Source: Calothrix sp. HK-06
GTDB taxonomy: Bacteria > Cyanobacteriota > Cyanobacteriia > Cyanobacteriales > Nostocaceae
Direction of reading: 5' to 3'
DNA length: 57,039 nt
NCBI RefSeq assembly: GCF_001904745.1
Contig: NZ_MRCD01000058.1
Location: 1 to 57,039 of the forward strand
Part shown: one piece after another, positions 1,443-53,260 of the stretch
Layout of the letters: every line of letters begins with the position of its first letter
Position numbering within the stretch: the stretch's first letter is position 1
Program-made: the position numbers and the translations under genes
Notes under the pieces: generated by a model
Seen by the model: only the letters and a program-made list of their open reading frames with translations
The model's database searches: none
What the model was told of the DNA's origin: nothing

Positions 1443-2261
1443 CTACATAGGAATAAGTAGGTTATCCCAAACAGCGTGCGCCGAAACTTTATCGATAAAC
1501 TGTACGGCAGCAGTGCATTTGCCAAGTAGGTGGGGGTCTTTAAGGCTGGTCCACCATGTTACACCGAGTAGTTGTAGTAGTAGTAGCTGTGATGAGTGGT
1601 CAAGTTTACTGATTTCATTGCTGTGGTTTAATGCCTCGCACGTTGTTTTGGGAGGGGTGGATAGGTTTTCGATAAATGGTGATAGCTCATCCCATACTTC
1701 GAGTATTTGTAGTGCCCTACCCGGACTACCATATGAAGCACTAATTATTGCCTCATGTACATTTGAATGACCGTTATTTTCCAGTACTGTAACTACTTCA
1801 TCATTGGATAACTGTTTAAAATCGATACGATGACACCTGCTATTGATGGTGGGTAGCATTTCATGATTCGATACAATTATTATCGTGATATATGATGGTG
1901 GTTCTTCGAGTGTTTTCAATATTGCATTGCTGCATTTTTCTGATAACCCACCTTCTGCATTAATGATTACTACCTTCCGAGTTCCAATAGCTGGTTTGGT
2001 GGCACACCATGCGGATGCTTCCCGCATTTGTTCAATTTTGATGGTAGGTTTATTAGTAGTGGCACCTTCTGGTAGGACTACCAATAATTCGTACTTCGAC
2101 TTGATTAGATATTGAGCGAATAGTAAGGTCGCTTTGAATTTACCGATACCCGATATCCCAGTAAATAGGTATGCGGGTGCAATATTACCAGCATTGATAA
2201 TATTTTGTAGCATTGTTATAGCTACTTCGTTCCCGATTATCTCATTAAATAATGTGTTCAT
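1443..2261 (-). CDS. holB: DNA polymerase III delta' subunit (clamp loader)
   Basis: Delta' is the stator subunit of the bacterial clamp loader that opens the beta ring onto primed DNA. At 272 aa it is shorter than most chromosomal HolB proteins (about 300-330). A P-loop-like GISGIGKF lies at residues 35-42, with Phe where Ser/Thr is usual, and the Walker B region reads IINAE, so ATP hydrolysis is unlikely, as in typical delta'. The SRC arginine-finger motif is intact at 141-143. Its start overlaps the end of holA by 17 bases, so the two are probably translationally coupled, and a terminator follows. Plasmid-borne holB beside holA, dnaX and dnaN points to a self-supplied clamp loader. Confidence 0.88.
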   Translation of the reverse strand: MNTLFNEIIGNEVAITMLQNIINAGNIAPAYLFTGISGIGKFKATLLFAQYLIKSKYELLVVLPEGATTNKPTIKIEQMREASAWCATKPAIGTRKVVIINAEGGLSEKCSNAILKTLEEPPSYITIIIVSNHEMLPTINSRCHRIDFKQLSNDEVVTVLENNGHSNVHEAIISASYGSPGRALQILEVWDELSPFIENLSTPPKTTCEALNHSNEISKLDHSSQLLLLQLLGVTWWTSLKDPHLLGKCTAAVQFIDKVSAHAVWDNLLIPM

Positions 2262-3204
2262 TGCTTAACTTAGTCATTTCTACTATACGGGTGATTAGTG
2301 AATTATTCGAGGCGCCTGTTTTTAACTCATATTCGAGTTTAACGAGTACCGCTAATATATTACGTAGTCGTAATAATGAACAACTGCGAACTTCCTGTTT
2401 GAGGAAATAAATCCTCGAAGGGTTATAAACATTCGCAATTGATGCTATTTCTGCATCACTTTTATTTTCGATGATTCCCGCTTTGACGGCAAACCATGTA
2501 CGGAAACATGTTTGTAATGCAGCGGTAATTTGCAGTGGGTGTGTATTTTCCAGTTGATTCAATTTACTATATGCGTCCTCTGTTTTACCATCAAGGCAGT
2601 ACTTAGCTAACTGAATAGAATTGCTGTAATTATTACTAACTAGTTCTTGCAAAGCCTCAATTTCTACATTATCTTTATCTCCTACGTATAATTTGATTTT
2701 AGTCAATTCTGAGTTGATGAGTTCGCTGTTGGTGCCGATATTTTCAACCAAATATTGAATTGCTTCATTTGAAAGGTTGAATCCTTTCATAATAGCAGCG
2801 TCTTTTATATAGGTCGATAATTCGCGTGTATTCCATTCAGAAATACGTAGGAACTCTTGCATTTTCCCATATTTGAGTAATTCCTTTACTACTACTGTGT
2901 TACTAGCAGGTTTTTTGCTAGTAGTAATGAGTAGTATGTTGCCAGAAGGTGCCATTTCTAATTTACCTTTGATAATCTTTTTAGTATTGTCAGCATCTTT
3001 GAATAAGCAGTCATTTGACACATGAATTATTTTACTGTTCCCCATGAGTGGGGGTGTCAGCAGTTCATTGACTATGAAGAGTGCGTTACTATCGTCGGGC
3101 ATATGATGATAGTTTAGTACTTCATAATCTAATGCGCTTTTAATTTCATCAACACGTTGTTTCATGTTGAATTGGTCATCACCGTATAATATGTATACTT
3201 GCAT
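2245..3204 (-). CDS. holA: DNA polymerase III delta subunit (clamp loader)
   Basis: Delta is the wrench that binds and opens the beta clamp. The 319-residue protein starts with the family hallmark YILYGDDQF. It continues with an alpha/beta region containing LLTPPLMGNSKIIHVSN and ILLITTSKKPASN, then the helical collar domain; this layout and length fit HolA. ATG at 3204 is the first Met, and the leader just before it is AC-rich rather than Shine-Dalgarno-like. It is followed directly by overlapping holB. Sequence divergence from chromosomal HolA appears large, which fits an old plasmid lineage rather than a recent copy of the host gene. Confidence 0.85.
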   Translation of the reverse strand: MQVYILYGDDQFNMKQRVDEIKSALDYEVLNYHHMPDDSNALFIVNELLTPPLMGNSKIIHVSNDCLFKDADNTKKIIKGKLEMAPSGNILLITTSKKPASNTVVVKELLKYGKMQEFLRISEWNTRELSTYIKDAAIMKGFNLSNEAIQYLVENIGTNSELINSELTKIKLYVGDKDNVEIEALQELVSNNYSNSIQLAKYCLDGKTEDAYSKLNQLENTHPLQITAALQTCFRTWFAVKAGIIENKSDAEIASIANVYNPSRIYFLKQEVRSCSLLRLRNILAVLVKLEYELKTGASNNSLITRIVEMTKLSNEHII

Positions 3205-3276
3205 GTTTTTGTGTTAAGCGTTAATTATGGGTGTGTAATACCAGCTATTAGCATTGAATTAATAGCTGATATATAA

Positions 3277-3954
3277 TTATTGATTTCTGAGTTTCTTTAA
3301 CTGTTCAATGGTATCGATGTAGTTAAGTGCTGCTTCGATACCATTATCTTTAAATGCGATACTCGTCAATATGAAATCTGATTCGGTGGCGCTTTTCTCG
3401 TTTAACATATTGACTAGTACTGCCGGTAATTCAATGTCCCCAACCTTTGAGATTTGAGATAGTTCCTGCTCGTTAATTCCTTTTTCTTGCAGTTTGCGAG
3501 ATGGAAACGTTAATTTCTGTTGGTTTGATACTTTGTTAGCATTAATTCGACATATCTTGTTCCTGTTTTTAGGGTGCCGAATTCGGTGTTTAACTATAAC
3601 AGGATTTTCGGGGAATTTTATTTCATAATGTTGGGGGATATCGAGTGCGAGTTGACCAGTTAAATCATAGTTAGTGTACCTTTGTGGTGGTAACACATCA
3701 CATTTATAATCACCACTTTTAATTGGATGTCCACTAAAACGTAATACTACTTTAATTTTATGTTGAATTTTAGTAGCAATATACTTGTCATCAGGTAGTA
3801 ATGTAATATTTGCTTCTTCTGTCCATTCAATTTCGATAGTGCGTGTGCCAGCAAGAATTGTGAATACTCGATAATGATGATGTGGACGTGTAGCAAGGAA
3901 ATTGTCGAGCCACTCACGCTGCTTTTTATTTAGCTGATTTTCTTTACCCATCAT
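3277..3954 (-). CDS. Hypothetical protein in the replication module
   Basis: A 225-residue soluble protein that I do not recognise. It is lysine-rich, starts with a basic helix (KENQLNKKQREWLDNFL) and has a beta-rich middle with several basic stretches such as VKHRIRHPKNRNK around residue 125. It lacks membrane segments and obvious metal sites. It lies between holA and polB on the same strand, downstream of a 300-base gap that holds a structured RNA-like element. A nucleic-acid-binding accessory role in replication would suit the position and charge, but that is inference only. Confidence 0.6.
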   Translation of the reverse strand: MMGKENQLNKKQREWLDNFLATRPHHHYRVFTILAGTRTIEIEWTEEANITLLPDDKYIATKIQHKIKVVLRFSGHPIKSGDYKCDVLPPQRYTNYDLTGQLALDIPQHYEIKFPENPVIVKHRIRHPKNRNKICRINANKVSNQQKLTFPSRKLQEKGINEQELSQISKVGDIELPAVLVNMLNEKSATESDFILTSIAFKDNGIEAALNYIDTIEQLKKLRNQ

Positions 3955-3960
3955 TAAAAC

Positions 3961-4256
3961 CCAAGGGTACTGCGTCCTTGACCACAGTCAAAACGTAGGG
4001 GAATTGGAGAAAAAGGAGACATAAAATTGTGTGTTTGTGTTAGGATGAACACGGGTAAAACCTACTAATGGTCAACCAGGAAGTCACGCGCAAAAATTGT
4101 AAGGAGTTATCACTATCAATGGATGGTGAACCTGTGAACCCAACTACATCACTCGCAGTATGCGATGTTCCGTGTAAGGGATGCTGTGAAAACGAATAGT
4201 TAAGTTTTCCAGAATCCGAGACTATATTCCAATGGGATTGGTCGCGGAGTTTCAAA
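3961..4256 (+). ncRNA. Structured RNA element, HEARO/omega-RNA-like (core 4049-4253)
   Basis: This 300-base gap has no credible gene but is full of stems. ACACGG (4049-4054) pairs with CCGTGT (4170-4175). TCACTATC (4110-4117) pairs with GATGGTGA (4122-4129). CTG-t-GAAAAC (4184-4193) pairs with GTTTTCCAG (4204-4212). CCG-GACTA-ATTCC (4216-4230) pairs with GGGAT-TGGTC-CGG (4234-4247) around an AAT loop. Several pairs are G-U only on the plus strand, so the RNA is probably plus-strand, antisense to the flanking genes. ATGA lies directly before the first arm, and I recall HEARO RNAs abutting ATGA or GTGA. A further hairpin TTGAC-CACA-GTCAA is at 3978-3991. No iscB is adjacent. A group II intron fragment is the main alternative. 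Confidence 0.55.
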
Positions 4257-6065
4257 TCAAAATAAACTTAATTGTTGTACTGAACCACCGAGTAATCGTT
4301 CTGGTGCAATTATTTGCAGCAATTCGACACGTTTTGTATTTATTAACTGACAGTAGTAAGACTTAGAGTAATTACCAGAGGTGCAGATACCATTGACCCC
4401 GGTGTAGTAGGTAACGAATTGTTTGGGTTTGCCGATTTTGAGTAACTCAATTTCCCCTTCTTTGATACGGCGCCGAATTACGAGTTGGTCAATAGGATAG
4501 TTACCTGATTGAATTTGTCGAATTTGTGCTTTATGGTATTCCTCGGCAGCTTCATAACTTTCGAGGAAATGAGTAATGTATTGAATGGGGTGTTCGTTCT
4601 CTATTTTTGACTTGGCACGACTACTCCATGAACCCCTCCTGATTACTTTGCCCTCTGGTGTCCAAAGTAAGTAATTTTTACACCCGTTTTCCGGTATAAA
4701 CATCGCCTTGGCAAAGTTTTCGAGTTTGATAGTGATACCCTGTGGCAGCTTTGCGATTAACTGTTGATGTACTGACTCTGGATTATCGTGCATGAAGTAG
4801 ATGCCGTCTGTATCGTATTCAATGATAGTTGCACCCATTTCTTTGATAATTTGGAGCATTAATTTGAGTAGGCACCGGGAGTAAGCACAAACGAGTGCAG
4901 CGGCCACCATGTCATTGAAGGCGAGTTTGCCAGTACCGAGTAGACCGTAGTAGTAATTGAGTATGCCTTTTAAAGCTTTTTGTCGATTACTAAGTTCGGG
5001 TATATTTATTATGCGTTCGCGTTCACTCCTGAAATATTCAATCATTGCGAGTGATATTTCTTCGACATCGTACTTTGAATGAAGTCCGTAGTTCCAAATT
5101 ATCCAGGGATGCATACCACTGATATCTACTTGGGCGATTCGCTTTTTGTGGTAAAGTCCAGTGAAGGCGCCTGCCAGTCCACCTTGGAATTGTAATTTTT
5201 GTTCAGGTTTTGGGTAACTATTACAGGCTAGCTGTAAACCGCTACTCCATTTACTACCTGCGCCGAGTAGTGTTAACATGCCCAATCCCGTGTTGGGTGC
5301 TATATACTTTTCGTAGTAAAAGTCGGGTACTATTTTATCGGCTACGAGGGCAGTATCTTCGAGGTCGAGTCGAAGGTATTTTTCAATTTGTGCCCACCCA
5401 TTTGACCCCTCACCTTCGTTCCAACACCGAAGTATTTCTTCATATTCGAGTTCTAATCTACGTTCGTGGCGTAACCCCATATCAATGGGTACTTGTTTGA
5501 GCGATTTACTGTCACTAAGCAGGCGCCTAGTATTATCCCATCGCAATACACATATATACACGTCTACATGTTGAATGTTGTGTTGTACGAATATGGGATA
5601 TACCTCTAATGGTTCGTATCCGTATGGTATTGCGGTGCTTACCCTGATTTTTCTACTACTGATTTTGAAAGGATGCTTGATTTTATTTATTTCGCATCGC
5701 TTTATAATAAAAGGTATGTCAAAACCGATTCCATTATAAGTGAATATTATTTCGGGTTTAGTGTCATTTATAAGCGATATTAAACCTTTTAATATTTTTC
5801 GCTCATCGAAATGCATGAATATGTTAACGTTTTTTGACTGGTCACGGGCACCAATCGCGTATATTCTATCAATGGTAGAATCAAGCCCACTTGTTTCGAT
5901 ATCAACTATCGCGGTACTTAATTCACTGTAGTCTTTGATATTATTACGGGGTTTCCACGGTTTATTTGATTTTCGTTCATGCTTCCAGAATATATCTAGT
6001 TTGTCTTCATTAACAACTAATTTATTTTTAACTCTTTTAACTAATAATCTATGATTGTATACCAT
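4257..6065 (-). CDS. polB: Family B DNA polymerase with 3'-5' exonuclease
   Basis: A compact B-family replicative polymerase. Residue numbers count from the farthest possible start, a TTG at 6128; I prefer the ATG at 6065 (residue 22). Exo I DIETSGLD is at 76-83, Exo II YNGIGFDIP at 131-139, and Exo III YLRLDLEDT at 251-259. Polymerase motif A VDISGMHP (Asp335) is divergent from the usual DxxSLYP. Motif B is KGILNYYYG at 387-395 and motif C YDTDGIY at 438-444, so all acidic catalytic residues are kept. About 600 aa is short for the family; the palm/thumb is reduced and there is no intein. The last residues are QQLSLF, matching the bacterial beta-clamp-binding consensus QLSLF. It lies just downstream of dnaX, suggesting it is the plasmid's replicase, working with the plasmid clamp. 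Confidence 0.9.
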   Translation of the reverse strand: MVYNHRLLVKRVKNKLVVNEDKLDIFWKHERKSNKPWKPRNNIKDYSELSTAIVDIETSGLDSTIDRIYAIGARDQSKNVNIFMHFDERKILKGLISLINDTKPEIIFTYNGIGFDIPFIIKRCEINKIKHPFKISSRKIRVSTAIPYGYEPLEVYPIFVQHNIQHVDVYICVLRWDNTRRLLSDSKSLKQVPIDMGLRHERRLELEYEEILRCWNEGEGSNGWAQIEKYLRLDLEDTALVADKIVPDFYYEKYIAPNTGLGMLTLLGAGSKWSSGLQLACNSYPKPEQKLQFQGGLAGAFTGLYHKKRIAQVDISGMHPWIIWNYGLHSKYDVEEISLAMIEYFRSERERIINIPELSNRQKALKGILNYYYGLLGTGKLAFNDMVAAALVCAYSRCLLKLMLQIIKEMGATIIEYDTDGIYFMHDNPESVHQQLIAKLPQGITIKLENFAKAMFIPENGCKNYLLWTPEGKVIRRGSWSSRAKSKIENEHPIQYITHFLESYEAAEEYHKAQIRQIQSGNYPIDQLVIRRRIKEGEIELLKIGKPKQFVTYYTGVNGICTSGNYSKSYYCQLINTKRVELLQIIAPERLLGGSVQQLSLF

Positions 6066-6153
6066 AATTTTATTGTTTGTGCTTTTTTTAATATGTATTT
6101 TATGCAATAATAAAATGGAATTAATCAAGCAATAAATACTTGATTAATAGTCG

Positions 6154-7362
6154 CTATATTAAATTGATTATTTGTTCGCGAATAACGTAATATATCCAAG
6201 CAGGTGCTTTTTTGCCGTTTATACATTCAATATTTTGCCACGCAGCATTGATGTCATGGTTTGGCAATTGTTGTTTACCCCAAGCAATTGCGTCTGCTTC
6301 AGATTCCCAAGCCCTGTAAATAGGTATGAACTTCTCATTCAAGTCCATACGGGCAACTTCCATTAAAATTGCCTGTATCCAAATATCCGAAAACTCACCT
6401 TTGGTAAGGTACTCTTTGTTGCTGAGTGTTGTAACAATATGTTGTAATTCTTTGTTACTCCATACTTGTTTTATCGGATGGTCGGTGTAGGTAACGTATT
6501 TAATACAGGTCTTTACTATTGTAGTAAGAATTTTGTGAGGACTCTTTCCACGTGTAAGTAATAAATCAACTATTAATTTTGCTTGGTTGTAATTAGCAGT
6601 TGCCAGATGAACTAGGATTTTGTAAGCAGTTGATTCGTTAACAATCCCACAAATTTCCTCGAGAACCTCTTTAGTAATTGGCTTATTTAATGTAAATAGC
6701 TGGTCAAGTAGTGTTTGTGAATCTCGCATATGACCATTTTTGGCTTCTGCTATTGCCACTGCTGCATCTAAATCCAAGTTAAACTGTTCAAGCTGCGCGA
6801 TGTTTAATAGTGCTGATGCAATAGTATCTGCCCTTATTAGTTTAAATTCAAATGTTTGTGCGCGCGATTTAATTGTTGGAGGAACTTCTGATTCATTAGT
6901 TGTGCAAAAGATAAATGTTACGTTGTGAGGTGGTTCCTCAGTTGTTTTGAGTAATGCTTGCCACGCCTGTCTAGATAAAGAGTGACATTCATCAATGATG
7001 ATTACTTTCCATGCTCCAGCAATAGGAGCAAACTGAGTACGTTCGATTATATCGCGCATCGGGTCTACCCCCGAATTAGATGCAGCATCAATTTCTATTA
7101 CATCAAGATGTGTACTTCTATTAATGTTAATGCATGAGCTACATTGATTACATGGTACTGTATCGTCTTGACAATTTATCATCTTGGCGAGTATTCTTGC
7201 AGTCGAGGTTTTACCTGTACCCTTAGCGCCCGTAAATAGGTAAACCGGCGCAATGCGTTGTTGAGTAACTGCATTTTGTAAAGTTTTAGTAGTGGTTTCT
7301 TGCCCGATTACATCTAATAGGGTTTGGGGACGATATTTGAGATGAATTGCTTCGTATGGCAT
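6154..7362 (-). CDS. dnaX: DNA polymerase III gamma/tau subunit (clamp-loader ATPase)
   Basis: This is the motor subunit of the clamp loader. Walker A GAKGTGKT is at residues 45-52, four zinc-binding Cys at 64, 71, 74 and 77, Walker B IIIDECH at 121-127, and the SRC finger appears as SRA at 166-168 with the Arg kept. At 402 aa it is gamma-length, without the long tau extension that contacts DnaB and the C-family polymerase; this fits a replisome that uses a B-family enzyme. I see no intein, although several cyanobacterial DnaX proteins carry one. It starts with ATG at 7362 and lies between dnaN and polB on the same strand. Confidence 0.92.
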   Translation of the reverse strand: MPYEAIHLKYRPQTLLDVIGQETTTKTLQNAVTQQRIAPVYLFTGAKGTGKTSTARILAKMINCQDDTVPCNQCSSCININRSTHLDVIEIDAASNSGVDPMRDIIERTQFAPIAGAWKVIIIDECHSLSRQAWQALLKTTEEPPHNVTFIFCTTNESEVPPTIKSRAQTFEFKLIRADTIASALLNIAQLEQFNLDLDAAVAIAEAKNGHMRDSQTLLDQLFTLNKPITKEVLEEICGIVNESTAYKILVHLATANYNQAKLIVDLLLTRGKSPHKILTTIVKTCIKYVTYTDHPIKQVWSNKELQHIVTTLSNKEYLTKGEFSDIWIQAILMEVARMDLNEKFIPIYRAWESEADAIAWGKQQLPNHDINAAWQNIECINGKKAPAWIYYVIREQIINLI

Positions 7363-7400
7363 ATGTTTTTTATTCCAATCATAATATGTAGTTATTTGTT

Positions 7401-7424
7401 TCCCCCTTTTTGATATAAGGGGGA
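7401..7424 (-). terminator. Intercistronic hairpin between dnaN and dnaX
   Basis: TCCCCCTT and AAGGGGGA form a perfect 8-bp stem around TTTGATAT, 10 bases past the dnaN stop. On the minus strand no U tract follows, so it is more likely a partial terminator or an RNA-stability element than a strong stop. Confidence 0.45.
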
Positions 7425-7433
7425 GAAGAGATA

Positions 7434-8753
7434 TCAGGCAGCGACTTTTAACTTGCGACCTTTTGTTGAAGTATTTTTCTTTGTGTTAGTCTTTGTTTTT
7501 GGTGCAGTATGTGTGTTAACTTCTGGCTGAGTGTTCTTGTTATTAGATTTTGGGGTGGTTTCTTTTTCTGTGGGTGTTTTAGTATCAGTATTAACACTAT
7601 TTCGCCTAATCTGTAATGGCATTACTAGCGCAGTTTGTTCTAGCAACCCACCAATTGGAGATATTACAATTGGTGTAGTATGAGTATTACATTTGATTAC
7701 AATTTCATCAGTATCAATAGAGTTTATAGCCTGCGTCAAATAATCTATATTGAATCCAATGCTGATGTCTTCTGATGTTTCTGTTTTCGGTTTAATGCTG
7801 ATTGAATCGTATGCTTCTCCATAGTCTGATGACTCGGTAGATACTATAGCATTACAATTATTAACACTAAAACTTACTAAAACAGATTTGTCTTTTTCAT
7901 GAGCAAGGTTTTCTACACGTTTGATTGTTGCTTGAAAAGCTTTTCTTTCAACTGTAAATTCATAGATGAATTTTTTAGTAATTATGCTTTCAATAGCTGG
8001 GTAGGTTCCATCTAATAATCGAGATATTATTTTGATTTCCGGCATATTAATCTCTACAATTTTGCTAAATACATTAATCAAGCAATCGTTATTTTCAGCA
8101 TTTTTTTGTAATACTTTTAGAATTGATGTAAGTATTTTTGCAGGTATTGTAAAGTTTAGTTGGTTTTCATCTTCATCATTATTTTTATCTAATGACATGC
8201 AAATGCGCCCAACTCTGTGACCATCAGTTGTTGTTGTGTATAGCTTATCCCCTGTAATATTGAAATTAGTACCAGTAAGTACCATCTTTGTTTCATCACT
8301 GGCGGCGCCGTATAGTACTTTACTAATAGCCTTTTCAAATTTTAAAGCTGATAGTTTTAGTGTACCAATAGGATCTGTGTCTTTGATAGAGTCTTCGATT
8401 TGAGGGAATTCATCTAGATTGTTGTTGACTGCTAGTCGGCAAAGTCCGCTTTCGTATGTGATTGTTAGGTATTGCTCATCAGAGGAAAGTGTTAGTTCGC
8501 CGTTGAGAGTCAGTACTGTATCCTTGAGCTTTTTACCAATTACGGCAACACAACCTGATTCTTCTACATCAGCCTCAATTATTTGATTAATACTGAAAGA
8601 TGCATCAGTACTTTTTAATGTTATTTTATTTTCTTCTTCGGATGCCTCTACGATTATACATCCAGTGATGGGGGTGCATGGTTTGCTAGAAATAGCTAAA
8701 ACTGCTGATTCTATGGCGCCGCTTAGTAAGGCTTGATTTATTTGTACCTTCAT
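7434..8753 (-). CDS. dnaN: DNA polymerase III beta sliding clamp with C-terminal extension
   Basis: The clamp tethers polymerase to DNA. I set the start at ATG 8753 (MKVQINQALL), which matches the normal beta N-terminus; the frame is open 27 codons further upstream, but that segment is Thr/Asn-rich and unlike the family. Three clamp domains follow, including LYTTTTDGHRVG and the domain-3 hallmark DGTYPAIESI. The fold should end at LVMPLQIRRN, near the end of a normal 370-390 aa clamp. Here about 55 more residues follow, rich in Lys, Thr, Asn and Pro and ending GRKLKVAA. That tail sits next to the partner-binding cleft and could contact DNA or regulate access. It is followed by dnaX and preceded closely by a possible SSB substitute. 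Confidence 0.9.
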   Translation of the reverse strand: MKVQINQALLSGAIESAVLAISSKPCTPITGCIIVEASEEENKITLKSTDASFSINQIIEADVEESGCVAVIGKKLKDTVLTLNGELTLSSDEQYLTITYESGLCRLAVNNNLDEFPQIEDSIKDTDPIGTLKLSALKFEKAISKVLYGAASDETKMVLTGTNFNITGDKLYTTTTDGHRVGRICMSLDKNNDEDENQLNFTIPAKILTSILKVLQKNAENNDCLINVFSKIVEINMPEIKIISRLLDGTYPAIESIITKKFIYEFTVERKAFQATIKRVENLAHEKDKSVLVSFSVNNCNAIVSTESSDYGEAYDSISIKPKTETSEDISIGFNIDYLTQAINSIDTDEIVIKCNTHTTPIVISPIGGLLEQTALVMPLQIRRNSVNTDTKTPTEKETTPKSNNKNTQPEVNTHTAPKTKTNTKKNTSTKGRKLKVAA

Positions 8754-8842
8754 ATTTGTGGTAGTGTTATAGGTGGTTAGAGGGTTTGCATTGTCAGTAA
8801 CTGTGTTTCGATGATGTCGCACAATTACTGACAAGTTAATTT

Positions 8843-9844
8843 TTAGTAGGGAGGGTTGTCGTTAACTTCGATGTCGTCATCTACTAAAGTTGCGGGTAGC
8901 AATAGCTTTCTTTCGACTCTGCCTTCTACTACAAGTCGATTATGTTCCTCCACAATGGGCGCCGCTTTTCCAATACTCATAGTGAGGTCAGGGTTTGTTG
9001 CGACAAGAGTGGCATACTCTTTACTCTTCCATTCGCAGAAGAAATCTAAGAAATTGCTGCCATCTTGTTTCGGTGTTTCATATTTTTCGACGATTGCCAC
9101 CCACGAACGGTTTGTAGCTTTCGGCTCGGTTTTAGGTTCGTGGGACGGGGCGAATGTGGGATTAAATACGCACATTCTATGAAACTCATCGTCTTTGGGG
9201 CACCTATCTTCGCCATAAAAGTTTGCAAATGCAGTATCAATATCCGAGTAGAAAGCTTCTAATGCTATGTCAAACTTCACTAGCTGTACACCTTTCATGG
9301 TTATCGCAATAGGAATGTCATGAAGGTTGTTATTGTTTTCATCTAGCACGAACGCGAAATAAAACCTTCTAAGAACATGCGTTGCCTTATTTTTGTTATA
9401 AAACTCTCTGCCATCATTTGTTTCAAGTATCATGTTGGCCAGAGTACCAGATGTTGTACCATCGTCCAGGTCTTTTCGTGCTTCAGGGAAAGTGTAACTT
9501 TTTTGTATAATGTTTAACCTTGGTGACTGGAGCAATATACCTGTTTCTTCTTCCCCATTAGAAAATGTGTGCTTATGCTTTGCTTCCTCACCTTTCCAAT
9601 TAATACGATTAAGCGCATTTTCCTTAATAAATAATCCCACTTTTGTTGGGTCTTGTATGTTTATGATTTGGGTTATCGGCGCCGAACTAATAGGTTTGTT
9701 ATGTTTCGGGTCTAGGTATTTACTTGCAGCTTTCCTTCTTTCTTCTTCAGAACGCTGTTTGCCTGTAATTGCTGGTATAGTATTAGTTACATCTGTTTGA
9801 GTTTCTTCAGTGTTTGATGAAACTTTACCGTTTTTGATAGCCAT
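8843..9844 (-). CDS. Unknown replication-module protein, possible ssDNA-binding protein
   Basis: A 333-residue soluble protein that I do not recognise with confidence. It has a disordered polar N-terminus to about residue 60 (including QRSEEERRKAASKY), a beta-rich core, and a C-terminus ending VDDDIEVNDNPPY. Bacterial SSB and T7 gp2.5-like proteins end in a short acidic tail with terminal aromatic residues, and the module otherwise lacks an SSB. This gene sits 90 bases upstream of the clamp. A role in coating single-stranded DNA and recruiting partners is therefore plausible, but I see no OB-fold signature by eye. It could also be a structural or recombination-mediator protein. ATG 9844 is the first Met. 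Confidence 0.6.
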   Translation of the reverse strand: MAIKNGKVSSNTEETQTDVTNTIPAITGKQRSEEERRKAASKYLDPKHNKPISSAPITQIINIQDPTKVGLFIKENALNRINWKGEEAKHKHTFSNGEEETGILLQSPRLNIIQKSYTFPEARKDLDDGTTSGTLANMILETNDGREFYNKNKATHVLRRFYFAFVLDENNNNLHDIPIAITMKGVQLVKFDIALEAFYSDIDTAFANFYGEDRCPKDDEFHRMCVFNPTFAPSHEPKTEPKATNRSWVAIVEKYETPKQDGSNFLDFFCEWKSKEYATLVATNPDLTMSIGKAAPIVEEHNRLVVEGRVERKLLLPATLVDDDIEVNDNPPY

Positions 9845-9911
9845 AATCTAGGCGTTTTTGTATTATGTTTACGCTTCAATTACGCATAGCGATTAAGTCA
9901 TAAATATTGAA

Positions 9912-9946
9912 AAATATAACGTTGTCAGAAGACAACAATTATATTT
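9912..9946 (-). terminator. Hairpin after the 78-aa gene
   Basis: AAATATAA pairs with TTATATTT (9939-9946), enclosing GTTGTC-AGAA-GACAAC (9921-9936), to give a nested stem just beyond the stop at 9949. The U tract is weak. It probably ends or attenuates the 9949-11223 gene group before the gene at 9844. Confidence 0.5.
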
Positions 9947-9948
9947 GA

Positions 9949-10185
9949 TTAGCTAGCTTTAATTTCAGTTAACATTTTTTGTAAGTTTTGGATGTAGTTT
10001 TCCAATAACTTAACTGTACGTTTTGAGAACTTTAGGCTAACTGATTTATCTCGACCATCGTATACTGCTATTGTTTTGAGGATATTGCTACCATAAACAG
10101 TTATCATGCAACCTGAATGTGGCTCAAATATATACGATATGTAACTATTCCAAGTCGGTTGTTTTTTATTTTTACTGCGTGCCAT
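9949..10185 (-). CDS. Small hypothetical protein (78 aa)
   Basis: Unrecognised. The protein starts basic (MARSKNKKQ), has a beta-rich middle and ends in an amphipathic helix (VKLLENYIQNLQKMLTEI) that could oligomerise. A clear Shine-Dalgarno AGGAG lies 8-9 bases before ATG 10185, unlike most genes in this left half. It overlaps the end of the upstream gene by 14 bases, so the pair is likely co-translated. Confidence 0.62.
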   Translation of the reverse strand: MARSKNKKQPTWNSYISYIFEPHSGCMITVYGSNILKTIAVYDGRDKSVSLKFSKRTVKLLENYIQNLQKMLTEIKAS

Positions 10186-10558
10186 TTTTATCTCCTATTT
10201 TTAAGTTTATGTAGACCATAAATTGATTAATATTCGTAATAAGCTTTTTGGTTTCAGCCGTTAATGAATCTTCTAGCAGCCAAGTTGGGCATTTCCATAC
10301 TTTTGCTTCCCAGCGTGTGTTTAATCTTTTGGATTTACGTACATCGCATTTTTCGCAGCATTTGTGTTCTAAAAGCCACTCTTCAAAATATAATGCTTTT
10401 TGCTTTGAGTTAAACCCAAAATATGTAGTAATTCGTTTCCCATTGGGGTTTGTAATGGTAGCAGCGCGCGTACCATACATGTTGATACTCCAACCATTCG
10501 CATCAATTTTTTCTTGATAAGTTGGTTTGATTTCTAATTTAGTTGCTGTGATATTCAT
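10172..10558 (-). CDS. Hypothetical protein with Cys cluster (128 aa)
   Basis: Unrecognised. A beta-rich first half (residues 1-60) is followed by CCEKCDVRKSKRLNTRW and a later Cys, a possible incomplete zinc site. The remainder is helical. It forms an ATGA stop/start overlap with the gene upstream (10555-11223) and a 14-base overlap with the one downstream, so it is the middle gene of a three-gene translationally coupled set. No function is inferred. Confidence 0.6.
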   Translation of the reverse strand: MNITATKLEIKPTYQEKIDANGWSINMYGTRAATITNPNGKRITTYFGFNSKQKALYFEEWLLEHKCCEKCDVRKSKRLNTRWEAKVWKCPTWLLEDSLTAETKKLITNINQFMVYINLKIGDKNGTQ

Positions 10559-11223
10559 AATGATATTTCTGGTATTGCTTCAAAATCTTCTTGCACTGAT
10601 TTACCTTGTAGCCATGCTGTGTAGTAAAATTGATTTTCTGCTACTGTTTCGTTAGTATTTAGTTGATGATTTGCAGAATTGATGATGGCACCAATGTCTT
10701 CTAAGTTTACTTGATGCTGTTTGGTGTTATAGCAAAATTGGCAAGTATCTTTGCTATCTGGGAATAGGTAAAGCAAAGATATGTTTTCACATTCTATGGT
10801 GAAATTTTTACGGAGCAAGTATAAGCTTAACCTAGTTTTCCAGCTATTTTCTAACCATTCAAGATTTTTAGCTTTTGGCACACTCCAATTAAAAGCTGTT
10901 ACACTGTTATTGTTGATGACGATGTAATCATAATTTTCAATTAGGTAGACATTATCATTAAACTGATATGAGAAATCAGTGTTGTAGTATTTAGTACCTT
11001 CAATACTAGTGTATGTTGAAACAAATTTTACCCACTCTTTAATTGGGTGATTGTATGCGAATTCATCAATTGACATTCCAAAAGATATTTGCCGCATTAC
11101 AGTATTGAATTGAAAATTTATATCGCTAATGTCGTTGTTATTAGACATTGCTTGACCAATATGTTTAGGTGCCTTTTGTTTAAGAGCATCACTGTTAAAA
11201 TACTGGTTAAATTGGTGATTCAT
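10555..11223 (-). CDS. PD-(D/E)XK nuclease-like protein, catalytic residues apparently lost
   Basis: Residues about 95-140 read YDYIVI, then TAFNWSVP, then EWLENSWKTRLSLYLLRK. I recognise this as the layout of a RecB/Cas4-like PD-(D/E)XK family common in cyanobacteria, where the second strand normally reads ILDWKT and is followed by EWL-NWQTRLY. Here DWKT has become NWSV, so the catalytic Asp and Lys are gone while the flanking scaffold is kept. The 222-residue protein may bind DNA without cutting it. It heads a three-gene overlapping set and lies beside the primase gene. Assignment is from pattern only. Confidence 0.5.
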   Translation of the reverse strand: MNHQFNQYFNSDALKQKAPKHIGQAMSNNNDISDINFQFNTVMRQISFGMSIDEFAYNHPIKEWVKFVSTYTSIEGTKYYNTDFSYQFNDNVYLIENYDYIVINNNSVTAFNWSVPKAKNLEWLENSWKTRLSLYLLRKNFTIECENISLLYLFPDSKDTCQFCYNTKQHQVNLEDIGAIINSANHQLNTNETVAENQFYYTAWLQGKSVQEDFEAIPEISL

Positions 11224-11245
11224 ACGCTCATACCTTTTGTTTTAG

Positions 11246-11269
11246 TATGAACGTATAACGTAGTTCATA
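11246..11269. promoter_or_regulatory. Inverted repeat upstream of the 222-aa gene
   Basis: TATGAAC and GTTCATA (7-bp perfect arms, 10-base spacer) lie in the 57-base gap between the primase stop and the next start. The position suits an operator or a short attenuator. Confidence 0.35.
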
Positions 11270-11280
11270 TAATTGATTAG

Positions 11281-12231
11281 CTACGAATTATTCGCTAAGT
11301 AATATAGACTACGGATTGTACACCTCAAGTTATTAAAAGTACTCCATTTATACGCACATAAACCAGGTGTGTATTTATGCGACATTTGACTCCACTCTTC
11401 CCATTGGGGAAGTAAACTAGTGCTAACAGATTTTAATGCCATACCTGTTTTTATCCAAGTATTGTAGTCATCCGCGTACTTGGGGTGGATTACGTCTAGG
11501 AGAATGGAAGCGATTTTGATTTCCTCTTGTGTTCCTTCATGAGATACACCTCCAAAATATGTATCTGAAATTCTGTAACTTTTTTGTGATGGCCGGAAGG
11601 TCATCTGTTTTATGACCCAATGTGGCGCCTCTTCCACGGGTATGATTTTTGGGCTACCTGCCACCCATTTATATTGTTTACCTCTTGGATGTAAGGAGGG
11701 TGGGAGTATGGAATTTAGGTTTGTACCACGTAATTCAAGATGGCTCCCATTCCCAGCGTCAATAACCCTTGACTTTAGGTAGGGATACATGGACAAGTCA
11801 GCTTTATAAATATACTGTTGCCGATTCTTTCTTCCACTGGTAAATGACACTGTTGGAGGTAAATACCTTTCTGCTAGTTTTTTAACCTCAAACTCATCTA
11901 TTTTGGCTAAAATATTTTGTTTTCCTTCGTTGATTTCGATAACTCGTCGATATGCTTCTATACCGTCGCAGTCGATTGCTAGCAGAAACTCTTTACTATT
12001 GGCGCCACATTTCAAGGCAAACCCTGTTGGTACAGCATCCTGCCATCCTTTTTTTGTTTCTATACGTAGTATTCCATTTTGGCGAATAAGTGTTTCTCCT
12101 AATTGATTAGCTGAGTAGGGTAGACCTTGCCACCCTTTACCCAGTGCCATTTTCATTCGTGTAGGTACAATCAACCAATGTGGAGGGATTTCGGATAATC
12201 CCTCGATTAGTGCTTTAACTTGTGCTGACAT
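11281..12231 (-). CDS. PrimPol-type primase/polymerase with PriCT-2 domain
   Basis: An archaeo-eukaryotic-type primase that would lay primers on plasmid DNA. The AEP domain occupies about residues 1-200, with motif I LLAIDCDG (Asp87, Asp89) and motif III LELRG followed by LPPSLHPRGKQYKW (166-189). Motif II reads TSGRKNRQQYIYK, with Gln where a His is usual. Residues 235-316 form a PriCT-2 domain (ADDYNTWIKTGMALKS, KWSTF). These domains are often fused to a D5-type helicase; here the protein stops at 316 aa and a separate helicase gene lies upstream. Start is ATG 12231. It replaces the missing DnaG in this module. Confidence 0.85.
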   Translation of the reverse strand: MSAQVKALIEGLSEIPPHWLIVPTRMKMALGKGWQGLPYSANQLGETLIRQNGILRIETKKGWQDAVPTGFALKCGANSKEFLLAIDCDGIEAYRRVIEINEGKQNILAKIDEFEVKKLAERYLPPTVSFTSGRKNRQQYIYKADLSMYPYLKSRVIDAGNGSHLELRGTNLNSILPPSLHPRGKQYKWVAGSPKIIPVEEAPHWVIKQMTFRPSQKSYRISDTYFGGVSHEGTQEEIKIASILLDVIHPKYADDYNTWIKTGMALKSVSTSLLPQWEEWSQMSHKYTPGLCAYKWSTFNNLRCTIRSLYYLANNS

Positions 12232-12238
12232 AAAATGT

Positions 12239-12278
12239 AAACTACATTCACAACCTCCGAATGCGGTAAATGTAGTTT
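12239..12278. promoter_or_regulatory. Inverted repeat between helicase and primase genes
   Basis: AAACTACATT and AATGTAGTTT form 10-bp perfect arms around a 20-base spacer, entirely inside the 64-base gap. It may be an operator of the primase or a weak terminator of the helicase; no U tract follows. Confidence 0.45.
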
Positions 12279-12295
12279 GAGTGATTATTATTCAA

Positions 12296-15004
12296 TTACT
12301 GCAATAGTTTCACTCCCAAATCTTTAAACAGATGTTCGTTATCATCTGGGCATCGATGTATTGTAGTGCATCTGTGACAACCATGCTTACAGTCACAGTT
12401 GTTTACTAGCGTTCGGGCTTTTTGGACAACTTGCTGCCAATAATCTATAAGTGTATTACAGGCGCCTGTGCCATTTTGAGTAGTATCAAAGAAATACCCA
12501 ACTATCGAATTTTGGTTTTGTTTTTGATTTTGGGTTAAACCGAATTCAATATCTTTGCTGTTTGTTTCGTGCTTAACTAGAGGCAGTGCTAGCATTAGTT
12601 GATGAGCTAGCGTATGGATAACAATCAGCATTGGTTCTGAAGTAAACAACATGGCTAATTCTCTATTCATTGTGCAGTTCCCTAAATGAATACTTTCTTG
12701 AATAGTTTGTTTTGCCTCTAATACAACACTATTGAAATAGCTTGTATTACCTGTCACCGATACTTCGATTGTGGGTGTTTCATACTCTACAGTAATTGGG
12801 TTTTGGTAGTTTATATCCTCAATTAGTTCATCAACCTCAATGCTCCTTAGCAAATTACTACATGCAGGACATATTTTATACTCTGTATGAATGGCTTTGT
12901 GGTGGTTGCGACATTTTTTGCGGTTACAAGTCCAACGTAATTCTTTATTACGTAGTTCATAACCACTCACCGATTCTTTGATTAACCCCCAAATAGGATT
13001 GAGAATGAAAGATGAATCCTCAGTTAATTTTACATGTATTCTTTCACCTTTTCCTACCTTAATATTACTAATTTTTAGTTCTGATTTACAAACTGTGTAA
13101 AAGGTTGTATTTTTGTTGATAGGCTTTAATATACAATTACCTTCCTCTAAATCTAGACTGATTGCACGATATTTTACAGGATGCCCGTCAAAGTCTTGTG
13201 CCGGATAAATGGCGCCTTGATATACTTCTCTGATTGCAATACTTTTTGAGCTTGACTCAAATTCTTCGCCAGTTTCTTGATTTATGTACTCAATATTACC
13301 CCCTTCACCACGCATCTTAATATTGGCGTGGTAGTAACCAAGATTTGGGTTAGCTTCAATGCGGTTGTTGAATGATGGAAGAAGTTTTTCTTCATCTAGT
13401 AACTTTTGCATGATTTCTAGCCCAAATGCACCGAAATATTCTTCAATTAATTCAACTGTTGGTTTGCTTTCAACAGCCGCAGCAATTAGGTGGTTGGTAA
13501 TTATAGATTCATAGTTTTGATTGAAGCTGATAATTTCAGCTTTATCTGTAAATAGCTTATCAGGATTATCGGCATAGTATCCATCAATCACACTTTGCTG
13601 GGATGGGATAAATACTATTAATCCTTTTCCGTGTCTTCCTGCACGTCCCATTTGCTGGCGAGTACTAAGTATTGTTCCTGGGTATTTACAGATGATGGTA
13701 GCAGAAATGTTACTAATATCTACACCAGCCTCTAGGGCACTGGTTGACACAATACCTTTGATTTTTCCCTTTAACAAATCGCTAATTATTTCAGAGCGTT
13801 GTATTGGCTTCATGCTTCCATAAAAGCAAGAGCATTTGTTTATTAAATCACTTCTACCTCTATCAATTAGTATTTGACGAGTTTTTGCCGCAATAGCTTT
13901 ACTTTGCGCGCGGCTAATAGCAAAACAAATTGTTGTTACATCAAGCTCAATCAATTTTGCTAAACACATAGCCGCATCTTGAGTAGATGTTTTACTATTA
14001 CGTAAGCATATAAATTGCTTTTCAAATGATTTAGCTCCACTCGATTCGATAATTGCTAAATTATCTTGCGAACGGTTTGAAATCAATGAAGCAATTATTT
14101 TAGGATTTCCAATAGTAGCAGAAGCAAAGATATATCTAATATTGTTTGGTTTACCTCCTAGCATATTTATTTTTAGTTGTGTCCTTTTGTTCAACCATGC
14201 AAAATGGGCGCCAAAAGTTCCGTTATAGAGATGCATCTCGTCAATAATTATTAACCTGATATTCAATAGCGTTTGAATTAATTGATAATTTTTTCCTTTA
14301 CTTGCTTCTAAATCATGATTCCACGCATCAGGTGTCGCCAATATTATTGTGGGAGTATTGACATACTGCTGTAATCTTTCCTTACGAGGTATATCGCCGT
14401 TAATATTTAATACTTTTGGGCGAATATTTGTCGGAATATGCTTGACTATACCCTCAATTTTGCGCGATTGGTCTAATGCTAGCCCTTTTAAATTAAAGAA
14501 AATTAGTACTGATTTATTTTCTAAACACTCTTGCAATGCAGGAATTAGAAACGCTAATGATTTACCACTACTAGTCTGTGTTAGTAGTGCAATATCCTTA
14601 TTCTGTCTATATGCCTCCCATGCTTCAACTTGGTGTGAGTATAGTTGACTAATTCCTGTTTTAATAAGTGCATTTTTAATGATAGGATTAATATTGCTAG
14701 GTATTGAACTAAACATACCTCCTGCTCCATCAATTCTAGATATGTATGAGAGTAAGTTGTACTTATTTAGAAATGCCGCAAAAAATCCATACTTTACCTC
14801 GCTAGTTAAAGGCGCCTCATTAATTGGCATTAAATCGCCGTTTTCAATAAGCTTCTGCCAATTTTCAATTACTTCTTCGGATATACCAATTTTAACTATT
14901 AACTTATTTCCTATAATAGCTTTGATTAAGACAACTCCTAGTTTCTTACTATACACTGCTTGTGAGGGTTCTAACCATTTTGGAATGTTTAAATTAGTTT
15001 GCAT
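12296..15004 (-). CDS. DEAD-box helicase with DUF1998 (MrfA/Hrq1-like)
   Basis: A 902-residue superfamily 2 helicase. After a variable N-terminus come the Q-like region YSHQVEAW (123-130), Walker A TQTSSGKS (143-150), motif II IDEMH (254-258), SATIG, and C-lobe motifs GIVSTSALEAGVDI and QQMGRAGR. A zinc-ribbon-like CNRKKC-CPAC lies in the mid part. The C-terminal MZB/DUF1998 domain has four Cys in CDCKHGCHRCTTIHRC. This order matches MrfA/Hrq1-type repair helicases (MrfA acts on mitomycin C lesions in Bacillus), not the much larger DruE of Druantia. In this module it could be the replicative or repair helicase. It is the first gene of the left minus-strand run. Confidence 0.85.
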   Translation of the reverse strand: MQTNLNIPKWLEPSQAVYSKKLGVVLIKAIIGNKLIVKIGISEEVIENWQKLIENGDLMPINEAPLTSEVKYGFFAAFLNKYNLLSYISRIDGAGGMFSSIPSNINPIIKNALIKTGISQLYSHQVEAWEAYRQNKDIALLTQTSSGKSLAFLIPALQECLENKSVLIFFNLKGLALDQSRKIEGIVKHIPTNIRPKVLNINGDIPRKERLQQYVNTPTIILATPDAWNHDLEASKGKNYQLIQTLLNIRLIIIDEMHLYNGTFGAHFAWLNKRTQLKINMLGGKPNNIRYIFASATIGNPKIIASLISNRSQDNLAIIESSGAKSFEKQFICLRNSKTSTQDAAMCLAKLIELDVTTICFAISRAQSKAIAAKTRQILIDRGRSDLINKCSCFYGSMKPIQRSEIISDLLKGKIKGIVSTSALEAGVDISNISATIICKYPGTILSTRQQMGRAGRHGKGLIVFIPSQQSVIDGYYADNPDKLFTDKAEIISFNQNYESIITNHLIAAAVESKPTVELIEEYFGAFGLEIMQKLLDEEKLLPSFNNRIEANPNLGYYHANIKMRGEGGNIEYINQETGEEFESSSKSIAIREVYQGAIYPAQDFDGHPVKYRAISLDLEEGNCILKPINKNTTFYTVCKSELKISNIKVGKGERIHVKLTEDSSFILNPIWGLIKESVSGYELRNKELRWTCNRKKCRNHHKAIHTEYKICPACSNLLRSIEVDELIEDINYQNPITVEYETPTIEVSVTGNTSYFNSVVLEAKQTIQESIHLGNCTMNRELAMLFTSEPMLIVIHTLAHQLMLALPLVKHETNSKDIEFGLTQNQKQNQNSIVGYFFDTTQNGTGACNTLIDYWQQVVQKARTLVNNCDCKHGCHRCTTIHRCPDDNEHLFKDLGVKLLQ

Positions 15005-52812: not shown

Positions 52813-52910
52813 TTTTCCTAGGGGATAAGTCAGATACAAATATATCCCCTAGGAAAAGTTAGGTGCCGCAATCCTTAGAGGATAAGTTAGACATAAACAT
52901 ATCCTCTAGG
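52813..52910. repeat. Two tandem hairpins with compensatory change
   Basis: The first is TTTTCCTAGGGGATA paired with TATCCCCTAGGAAAA (52813-52827 with 52843-52857), a perfect 15-bp stem. The second, about 57 bases on, is TAGAGGATA paired with TATCCTCTA (52876-52884 with 52900-52908). The loops are also alike (AGTCAGATACAAATA and AGTTAGACATAAACA). A G-to-A change in one arm is matched by C-to-T in the other, so pairing is conserved. A third partial CCTAG copy and a CGCCAA/TTGGCG repeat follow to 52949. Confidence 0.75.
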
Positions 52911-53260
52911 AAAAGTCAGCGCCAAAATTCCTAGCAGAAAACATTGGCGTCAAGTTAAGAGAAATGCAGCCAAGTCAAGCGTGGCACCAGATATGGTTAA
53001 ACTCAACACAGGTTGCCTTTAAAGCTATGAGTAAACCACTTAAAAAACCAGGAAATCCAGATTTTCGGCACCGTGTGACGGTGCCGGCGCCACCAAGCGC
53101 AGAAATTGAGTCACGTTTGTTTCAACTATTTAGTCCAGGTACATTCGCCAATCTGAAAGGGGTCAAAGACAAAGAGCGTGACTTACGTGAACGAGTACTA
53201 ACTCTGCCAAGAGGCATAACCCTTGATTTGTCCTTAAGAGATTGCTTGGCGATTTATTGA
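52910..53260 (+). pseudogene. IS4-family transposase N-terminal remnant
   Basis: From ATG 52964 (frame open from 52910) the product contains AWHQIWLNSTQVAFKAMSKP, PAPPSAEIESRLFQLFSPGTFANLKG and KDKERDLRERVLTLP. This is the N-terminal region of cyanobacterial IS4-family transposases. The usual continuation after TLP (a hydrophobic VMVAIVLSLVYRQ-type segment) is replaced by an unrelated 15 residues and a stop, so the catalytic DDE part is missing. It is either a decayed insertion or a captured N-terminal domain. It contains GGCGCC, so it has been in this plasmid lineage for some time. Confidence 0.65.

Follow-up and report, generated by a model that had tools for sequence, protein, structure and literature searches.

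A family B DNA polymerase encoded with a bacterial sliding clamp and clamp loader on cyanobacterial plasmids: a putative polymerase holoenzyme of mixed ancestry

Introduction

Bacterial replication usually relies on a C-family polymerase, DnaE, acting on the beta sliding clamp, and family B replicases normally operate with PCNA-type clamps. Can the two arrangements be mixed, such that a family B enzyme copies DNA on a bacterial clamp? The question is raised by a minus-strand gene run in Calothrix sp. HK-06, located on a contig of 57,039 bases that we analysed in its entirety (hereafter the window) and that belongs to a 10-Mb genome assembly. The run encodes a family B DNA polymerase (PolB), a beta sliding clamp (DnaN), and the clamp-loader subunits DnaX, delta and delta'. 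From comparative sequence analysis, we consider it reasonably probable that this operon encodes the plasmid's own DNA polymerase holoenzyme, of mixed ancestry, in which PolB would work on the plasmid's own clamp and without DnaE. If this is true, the conserved core of such a machine would be the clamp platform and not the polymerase, with polymerases exchangeable via a motif of five residues, which bears on the evolutionary replacement of one replicase by another, non-homologous one; the operon would also represent a compact, possibly orthogonal, five-protein replication system.

A conserved gene module on cyanobacterial plasmids

The window most likely represents part of a plasmid similar to plasmid1 of Calothrix sp. 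NIES-4105, since nine collinear blocks, with nucleotide identities of 74-94%, are shared between the window and this circular element of 394,733 bp, on which the matching blocks span positions 267,798-346,524 with two larger jumps. Read in the direction of transcription from position 15004, the minus-strand run comprises genes for a superfamily 2 (SF2) helicase, a Prim-Pol/PriCT_2 protein, two uncharacterised proteins, a DUF5895 protein, DnaN, DnaX, PolB, an uncharacterised protein of 225 amino acids, delta and delta'. Every gene named in the original prediction, an earlier reading of the bare sequence, was recovered by Pfam and NCBIfam profile searches, each in its expected place on this run. 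The run is not a chance assembly: its genes make up a conserved module and evolve under purifying selection, with a ratio of nonsynonymous to synonymous substitution rates (dN/dS) between 0.09 and 0.25 in the ten genes compared with NIES-4105 and PCC 7716, wherever dN was non-zero and dS could be estimated; for delta', dN was 0 relative to NIES-4105.

A tblastn search with PolB returned 25 PLSDB records, comprising 18 cyanobacterial plasmids of 178-395 kb (at least 36% identity over at least 91% of PolB) and 7 Deinococcus plasmids (approximately 25% identity over 61-65% of PolB). Regions from 13 of the 18 cyanobacterial plasmids were fetched and compared, and the order dnaN-dnaX-PolB-delta-delta' was present at all 13 loci; an IS5-type element splits the PolB gene of T. 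variabilis plasmid C. In the single Deinococcus region that was read, neither dnaN nor dnaX is annotated in the vicinity of PolB, and no open reading frame (ORF) matches either gene. A scan of GTDB yielded 50 PolB loci, some from the same plasmids as the fetched 13, and 42 full-length loci were retained once 8 fragments or cut-off genes had been dropped. Where the flank was long enough, DnaN and DnaX were each encoded at 35 of 38 loci, and delta and delta' each at 27 of 30. All four partners accompany PolB at 25 of the 28 loci with both flanks, in exactly this order every time, so the possibility, raised with the original prediction, that homologues of these genes occur scattered and never together is not borne out. 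The exceptions are L135, which lacks dnaN and dnaX, L144 and L159, which lack all four partners, and L164, which lacks delta and delta' and has an upstream flank too short to assess. Separately, fragments of PolB, some consisting of the C-terminal part alone, occur in other Nostocales genomes (G022, G103, G245, G048, G155 and others; loci L158 and L165-L169), and are probably remnants of integrated or decayed plasmids.

The polymerase and its C-terminal motif

PolB (4257-6065, minus strand) is a protein of 602 amino acids, and not 623, its start having been corrected to position 6065 by reference to homologues. Searched as a single sequence against Pfam, its exonuclease domain is detected (PF03104, 1.3e-11) and its polymerase domain is seen weakly (PF00136, E=0.056), the latter being missed in the family search of its own genome. 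Against the PDB, a profile of 18 PolB sequences matches family B polymerases of archaea (7e-38), and an AlphaFold model with a predicted local distance difference test (pLDDT) score of 88.4 resembles the 9N, KOD and Tgo polymerases, with template modelling (TM) scores of up to 0.70 by query length. The residues expected of an exonuclease of the DEDD type (D55/E57, N111-F115-D116 and Y230/D234, for motifs I-III) and of polymerase motifs A (D314), B (K366-N370-G374) and C (D418-T-D420) are all in place, in columns that are invariant in two alignments. The original description of a B-family enzyme with intact exonuclease and polymerase motifs consequently holds, and PolB is a real, and probably active, family B polymerase.

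The feature that ties this enzyme to the clamp was absent from the original prediction and emerged from the present analysis. PolB ends in QLSLF (codons at 4260-4274, minus strand), and a clamp-binding motif of the form QL[ST][LI][FL] terminates the protein at 41 of the 42 full-length loci, as QLSLF (33), QLTLF (5), QLSIF (2) or QLTLL (1), the sole PolB without it belonging to a Trichodesmium metagenome-assembled genome (L164). Residues Q598, L599, L601 and F602 are invariant in the 13 aligned plasmid sequences, and across 17 PolB sequences motif positions 0, 1, 3 and 4 show 94-100% identity, compared with 24-59% for the preceding 20 residues. The tail (residues 594-602) has pLDDT below 50 in the AlphaFold model. 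In the portion of PMC3716654 available to us, the beta-clamp consensus is given as QL[S/D]LF, and the E. coli Pol II version as QLGLF, at the extreme C-terminus of that enzyme. The PolB proteins of Nostoc phage N1 and D. grandis contain no match to Q[LMIV]xL[FLM], and no clamp gene was found in the stretches read from either. We therefore predict that the C-terminal motif forms the physical link between PolB and the clamp.

The clamp and the clamp loader

DnaN (7434-8753, minus strand; 439 amino acids, with a start placed at about 8753 by homologues) matches all three clamp domains and scores above the cut-off of TIGR00663, which identifies it as a beta sliding clamp. All 14 plasmid clamps compared retain LL[ED]Gx[YF]P and MP, and TDGHR is exact in 8 of them and present as the variant T[DN][GS][HY][RK] in the other 6; these are segments that we take to line the peptide cleft. 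Thirteen of the 14 clamps, L149 being the exception, carry an extra C-terminal tail that extends 58-98 residues past the final MP and is basic over its last 25 residues. In the window this tail consists of 60 amino acids (7437-7616) and is likewise basic. In phylogenetic analysis, the clamps of PolB plasmids cluster together (97/90), separately from 31 clamp sequences from cyanobacterial genomes (30 distinct, presumed chromosomal).

DnaX (6154-7362, minus strand; 402 amino acids) scores above the cut-off of TIGR02397 and retains a Walker A motif, the zinc-binding cysteines, a DExx box (DECH) and the arginine of the SRx motif, which reads SRA in place of SRC in the window, L001 and L005. Together with delta (HolA; 2245-3204, minus strand; 319 amino acids; PF06144 and PF21694, with TIGR01128 above cut-off) and delta' (HolB-like; 1443-2261, minus strand; 272 amino acids; PF13177, 4e-28), it makes up a complete clamp loader. 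The NCBIfam match of delta' (1.6e-58) falls below the model cut-off, and the protein keeps an SRC motif and has a degenerate P-loop (GIGKF). As originally proposed, DnaX is of gamma length and lacks the tau extension: the plasmid proteins measure 400-470 amino acids in 12 members, against an 868-amino acid frame in the host, which has a long C-terminal part and, judged by eye, an intein-like insert.

Replication genes absent from the plasmids

No DnaE (PF07733) was found on any of the 13 PolB plasmids or on five related plasmids that lack PolB, and DnaG was absent from all 18. DnaB_C had no match on the 13 PolB plasmids and none over the cut-off on the 18; two of the related plasmids gave weak matches that fall below it. 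The contig that constitutes the window likewise contains no match to DnaE, DnaB or DnaG. A dnaE/dnaG/dnaB set elsewhere on the replicon, which would have undermined the original prediction of a hybrid replisome built on PolB, was consequently not found. On other contigs, the host genome encodes DnaE, DnaB, DnaG, DnaN and DnaX, with DnaE confined to a single contig (C170).

Plasmids with a family A polymerase

Further cyanobacterial plasmids with DnaX or DnaN and without PolB were revealed by tblastn (best 60 of 127 and of 292 records). All of the five that we read carry dnaN, dnaX and holA, not always adjacent to one another, and four of the five carry a PolA-family polymerase. PolA was absent from all 13 PolB plasmids, and the two polymerases are thus mutually exclusive on these 18 plasmids; the idea that PolB plasmids carry PolA as an additional polymerase was accordingly rejected. 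Three strains, A. cylindrica PCC 7122, Aulosira laxa NIES-50 and Nostoc carneum NIES-2107, each harbour separate PolB and PolA plasmids. The plasmid pNPM2 (L016/W14) appeared polymerase-free by Pfam, and a PolA profile later matched a frame of approximately 320 amino acids, which we take to be a partial or decayed gene.

When searched by tblastn, PolA gave a set of matches headed by 23 cyanobacterial plasmids (best 50 of 107 records). Of 12 plasmid PolA sequences aligned, from 11 plasmids, 7 have QLSLF, QLSLL, QISLL or QLPLF within an insert that host PolA does not have and that we presume lies in the thumb domain. The sequences without the motif comprise three from plasmids of 12 and 27 kb, one from Chondrocystis and one from Stanieria pSTA7437.01. 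The three from 12- and 27-kb plasmids are paired with a DnaB-like helicase, and no dnaN or dnaX occurs in the part of these plasmids read. An association between the PolA motif and the presence of a clamp is suggestive, though not perfect. The PolA-plasmid clamps fall outside the PolB-plasmid group in a tree with long branches, and we make no claim of a single clamp origin for the two plasmid types.

These plasmids show the premise of the original prediction, that plasmids normally borrow the host replisome, to be too simple, given that others carry dnaN or dnaX, or a PolA with a DnaB-like helicase. A pairing of the latter kind occurs on small Cyanobacterium plasmids (L211 and L209, the latter a whole plasmid of 12.2 kb), where a PolA-family exonuclease/polymerase accompanies a DnaB-like helicase in what appears to be a different, minimal self-replication kit. 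On Oscillatoria pOSC7112.01 (L017:19504-34510), DISARM-annotated DrmA and DrmD, a DUF1998 protein and a DNA methyltransferase directly adjoin dnaN-dnaX-holA.

A proposed mechanism and its alternatives

Under the interpretation that we favour, DnaX in its gamma form would act with delta and delta' to close the plasmid's DnaN ring around primed DNA. The flexible QLSLF tail of PolB would then dock in the peptide cleft of the clamp, rendering the enzyme processive, and the tethered PolB, equipped with proofreading and polymerase sites, would synthesise plasmid DNA without DnaE. A loader without the tau extension would not be coupled to DnaE or DnaB in the manner of E. coli. The Prim-Pol protein and a single-stranded DNA-binding protein (SSB) probably serve the same fork, to which DUF5895 may contribute as a second single-stranded DNA-binding or adaptor protein, and the helicase is probably borrowed, in the form of the host DnaB encoded in the genome. 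On related plasmids a PolA-family enzyme, often with a clamp-like motif of its own, might fill the same role. What the sequences show directly is the gene set and its order, its co-inheritance, the active sites, the clamp motif and, on the complete plasmids tested, the lack of any match to DnaE, DnaG or DnaB; beyond this, we infer that PolB would bind the clamp physically, gain processivity from it and act as the main replicase of the plasmid. The central claim of the original prediction, that PolB replaces DnaE on a bacterial clamp and loader, gains from the clamp motif and from the failure of both observations that might have overturned it (a dnaE/dnaG/dnaB set, or scattered homologues) to materialise; the word replisome is less well supported, as neither a helicase nor an initiator was found.

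Several observations weigh against this interpretation. At L135, L144 and L159 an intact PolB ends in QLTLF or QLTLL with no dnaN or dnaX in the tested flank, and the motif could therefore also serve the host clamp. L164 combines the loss of delta and delta' with a PolB that lacks the motif, and at L149 dnaN stands downstream of delta' (the upstream flank here being too short to assess). The trait is also rare, since 18 of 386 cyanobacterial genomes gave a PolB match, of which 5 were full-length and the rest partial or weak. Distance matrices of the five proteins correlate across 12 members (r 0.89-0.99, with none of 2000 permutations as high), which speaks for the interpretation, yet this may reflect no more than plasmid ancestry, as the comparison has no unrelated plasmid gene as a control. 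Among the PolA plasmids, Stanieria pSTA7437.01 (L207) has dnaX and holA together with a PolA that lacks the motif, and Leptolyngbya BL0902 (L208) has the PolA motif with no dnaN or dnaX in the stretch read. PHROG phage families match DnaX (3.5e-74) and DnaN (5.8e-48), so that the clamp and loader may derive from phages.

Equally relevant is what the fork would require beyond the holoenzyme. The analysis brought to light no replicative helicase, no initiator and no origin, and no iteron-like array occurs in the three stretches searched. In the Prim-Pol protein (11281-12231, minus strand; 316 amino acids), both domains are matched (PF09250, 6.5e-17; PriCT_2, PF08707, 8.5e-19), and of the motifs that we would expect, namely DxD, a motif-II histidine and an acidic motif III, the aligned sequences keep the first and have a glutamate at the position of the third. 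The TSGRxxRxQ segment, at the expected site of motif II, lacks histidine in all 11 members, and an active primase is accordingly a less well supported part of the original prediction. The SF2 helicase gene (12296-15004, minus strand) was also correctly identified, its product containing DEAD, Helicase_C and MZB matches, the last being a MrfA-type Zn-binding domain. A role at the fork is less well supported: the gene is found on three of the four PolB plasmids searched whole and is absent from W11, for which reason we reject the protein as the fork helicase and regard it as accessory and not universal.

The DUF5895 protein (8843-9844, minus strand; PF19247, 3.6e-25), encoded upstream of dnaN, terminates in a tip (NPPY/ELPY) that resembles the acidic tip that we assume for SSB. 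It has no sequence match in the PDB, and its model (pLDDT 50.5) has no fold match under E 0.001, on which grounds we reject it for now as a proven SSB. In the A. cylindrica-like clade, the operon has no DUF5895 gene nearby. Several plasmids have a separate ssb gene annotated a short way downstream of the operon (checked by PF00436 on one), and the W01 and W05 homologues lie far from it.

Three other explanations of the module deserve consideration. It might serve conjugation, by converting the incoming single strand into duplex, so that establishment would not depend on Pol III of the recipient. Fifteen of the 25 PolB records are typed as conjugative and 3 as mobilizable (counts in which the 7 Deinococcus plasmids are included), and the operon in the window adjoins a type IV secretion cluster with VirD4-like (24262-26025) and TrbI-like (28498-30285) proteins. 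We nevertheless think this explanation unlikely, as ParA/ParB and ssb neighbours on several plasmids are typical of maintenance functions, and a dedicated clamp loader would be costly for one-time use. A second candidate is suggested by E. coli Pol II, a family B polymerase that functions as an accessory repair enzyme and uses the host clamp. PolB could similarly be a repair or lesion-bypass polymerase with a spare clamp, leaving host Pol III to copy the plasmid; DnaE, DnaN, DnaB, DnaX and DnaG of the host are all encoded in the genome. Pol II is not known to require a dedicated clamp and loader, however, and PolB, at 602 amino acids, is much shorter (Pol II models have 783-795 positions). The two are alike as family B enzymes with a C-terminal clamp motif, which for Pol II is given as QLGLF in PMC3716654; here, by contrast, the polymerase shares an operon with a clamp and loader of its own, on a plasmid that lacks DnaE. 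A replicase slot is a better fit to the tight linkage of PolB to a complete loader, to their correlated divergence and to the alternation of PolB and PolA, and a repair function consequently seems improbable to us.

Finally, PolB could use the clamp and loader of the host, either alongside those of the plasmid or in their place, with plasmid dnaN, dnaX and holA mainly titrating or replacing host functions. The motif is generic, the clamp segments are conserved, and the three loci with a motif-bearing PolB and no dnaN or dnaX in the tested flank would fit such a scheme. Set against this are the tight synteny of the module, the correlated divergence of PolB and DnaN (r=0.89), and the PolB of phage N1, which would have only the host clamp at its disposal (from 50 of 65 kb read) and carries no such motif. 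Taken together, these points make exclusive or shared use of the host machinery very unlikely in our view, and a plasmid-borne holoenzyme in which PolB would act on its own clamp remains the interpretation that we prefer.

A broader version of this proposal, on which we are evenly divided, is that the clamp and loader form a fixed plasmid platform on which B- and A-family polymerases, having independently gained clamp motifs, replace DnaE, the clamp serving as a plasmid-specific hub. When 778 six-frame ORFs with a minimum length of 150 amino acids, drawn from the window and five plasmids, were examined, the motif fell within the final ten residues in 9; 2000 shuffles gave a mean of 0.10 and a maximum of 2, and 0.21 would be expected from the internal rate. 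Detracting from this enrichment, the first ten residues, used as a control, contain the motif in 2 of the 778 ORFs, five of the nine positives are PolB itself, and the window and W01 are close relatives. Because the motif class was, moreover, picked after PolB had been seen, the idea of the clamp as a hub for several motif-bearing proteins is suggestive only. Of the remaining positives, two are proteins of 155 to 160 amino acids adjoining PrimPol, and two are methyltransferase and helicase proteins of 1720 to 1733 amino acids that end in QLSLF(DL) (L001:18736-23937 and L068:4869-10031), the one on W01 lying one small gene beyond delta'. The latter may possibly provide clamp-tethered modification of plasmid DNA.

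Relation to known systems and previous work

The proposed holoenzyme shares with Pol III the bacterial beta clamp and the gamma-delta-delta' loader, and differs from it in having a polymerase of another family, no tau extension and, on the plasmids tested, no DnaE. A parallel to the PolA plasmids is offered by T7 DNA polymerase, which has a thioredoxin-binding insert in its thumb. Both are PolA-family enzymes with a processivity insert in the thumb, that of the plasmid PolA differing in that it carries a beta-clamp-like motif. T4-type replisomes combine PolB with a PCNA-type clamp and an RFC-family loader, as described in the part of PMC7824862 consulted, and resemble the plasmid module in that a mobile element encodes both a family B replicase and the clamp and loader to go with it; here, however, the clamp and loader are of the DnaN and DnaX/HolA/HolB types, and no PCNA/gp45 and RFC set was recognised among them.

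The same PolB family was reported by Chenard et al. 2016 (PMC4916379) from Nostoc phages A-1 and N-1 and from three cyanobacterial plasmids, namely Cyanothece PCC 7424 pP742402 (our L006), Nostoc PCC 7120 pCC7120beta and A. variabilis plasmid C (our L008). In the portion of that article available to us PolB is treated as a transferred gene, and neither 'dnaN' nor 'clamp' occurs in its main text. In the accessible part of Kazlauskas et al. 2020 (PMC7544198), cyanobacteria are mentioned once, for a different, motif-C-substituted group. Among the matches listed for titles and the beginnings of abstracts in the open-licence PubMed Central literature, we encountered no description of a partnership between PolB, clamp and loader on cyanobacterial plasmids. 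Since each ingredient is known and we found no report of the clamp partnership, we regard as new the combination of these ingredients as a proposed plasmid replication system, together with the alternation of PolB and PolA.

With respect to phages, tblastn identified PolB relatives in 20 records, comprising 7 Nostoc, Anabaena and Dolichospermum phages (approximately 35% identity), 10 Salinibacter records and 3 others. The PolB of phage N1 belongs to the same family and differs from plasmid PolB in lacking the clamp motif; in 50 of the 65 kb of its genome read, no DnaN or DnaX is annotated and no ORF matches those of the window. A viral origin of the whole module was also considered and set aside, as none of 40 pattern matches on viral contigs was confirmed, in a search that could reach only relatives sharing the chosen peptides.

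Neighbouring genes and other features of the window

Between PolB and delta lies the 225-amino acid protein (3277-3954, minus strand), which has no Pfam or PHROG match and is under purifying selection (dN/dS 0.10-0.19). It occurs at 10 of the 13 plasmid loci, and its position is kept in many members, not in all. Two further conserved proteins are encoded between the DUF5895 and Prim-Pol genes, one of 128 amino acids (10172-10558, minus strand), with homologues on related plasmids, and one of 222 amino acids (10555-11223, minus strand), whose homologue is annotated as a PD-(D/E)XK nuclease family protein in L003 and L011. On four Nostocales PolB plasmids (L008, L009, L012 and L013), E1/E2/JAB ubiquitin-like genes (ThiF family, prokaryotic E2 family D and Mov34/MPN) are situated between PrimPol and dnaN, unlike in the window, where this interval contains none.

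Repeat scans of three stretches, and Rfam and tRNA scans, revealed no origin. At 52813-52919, two direct repeats of 44 bp, each with an inverted repeat, lie between ORFs and could represent a parS-like or origin element. A TnpB-type (OrfB_IS605/Cas12f1-like) protein encoded on the plus strand at 140-1072 bears QLTLFD close to its C-terminal end, which may be a further clamp-binding motif. The window further encodes, at 45635-46861, a protein of the AIPR family (PF10592), members of which are often associated with phage defence.

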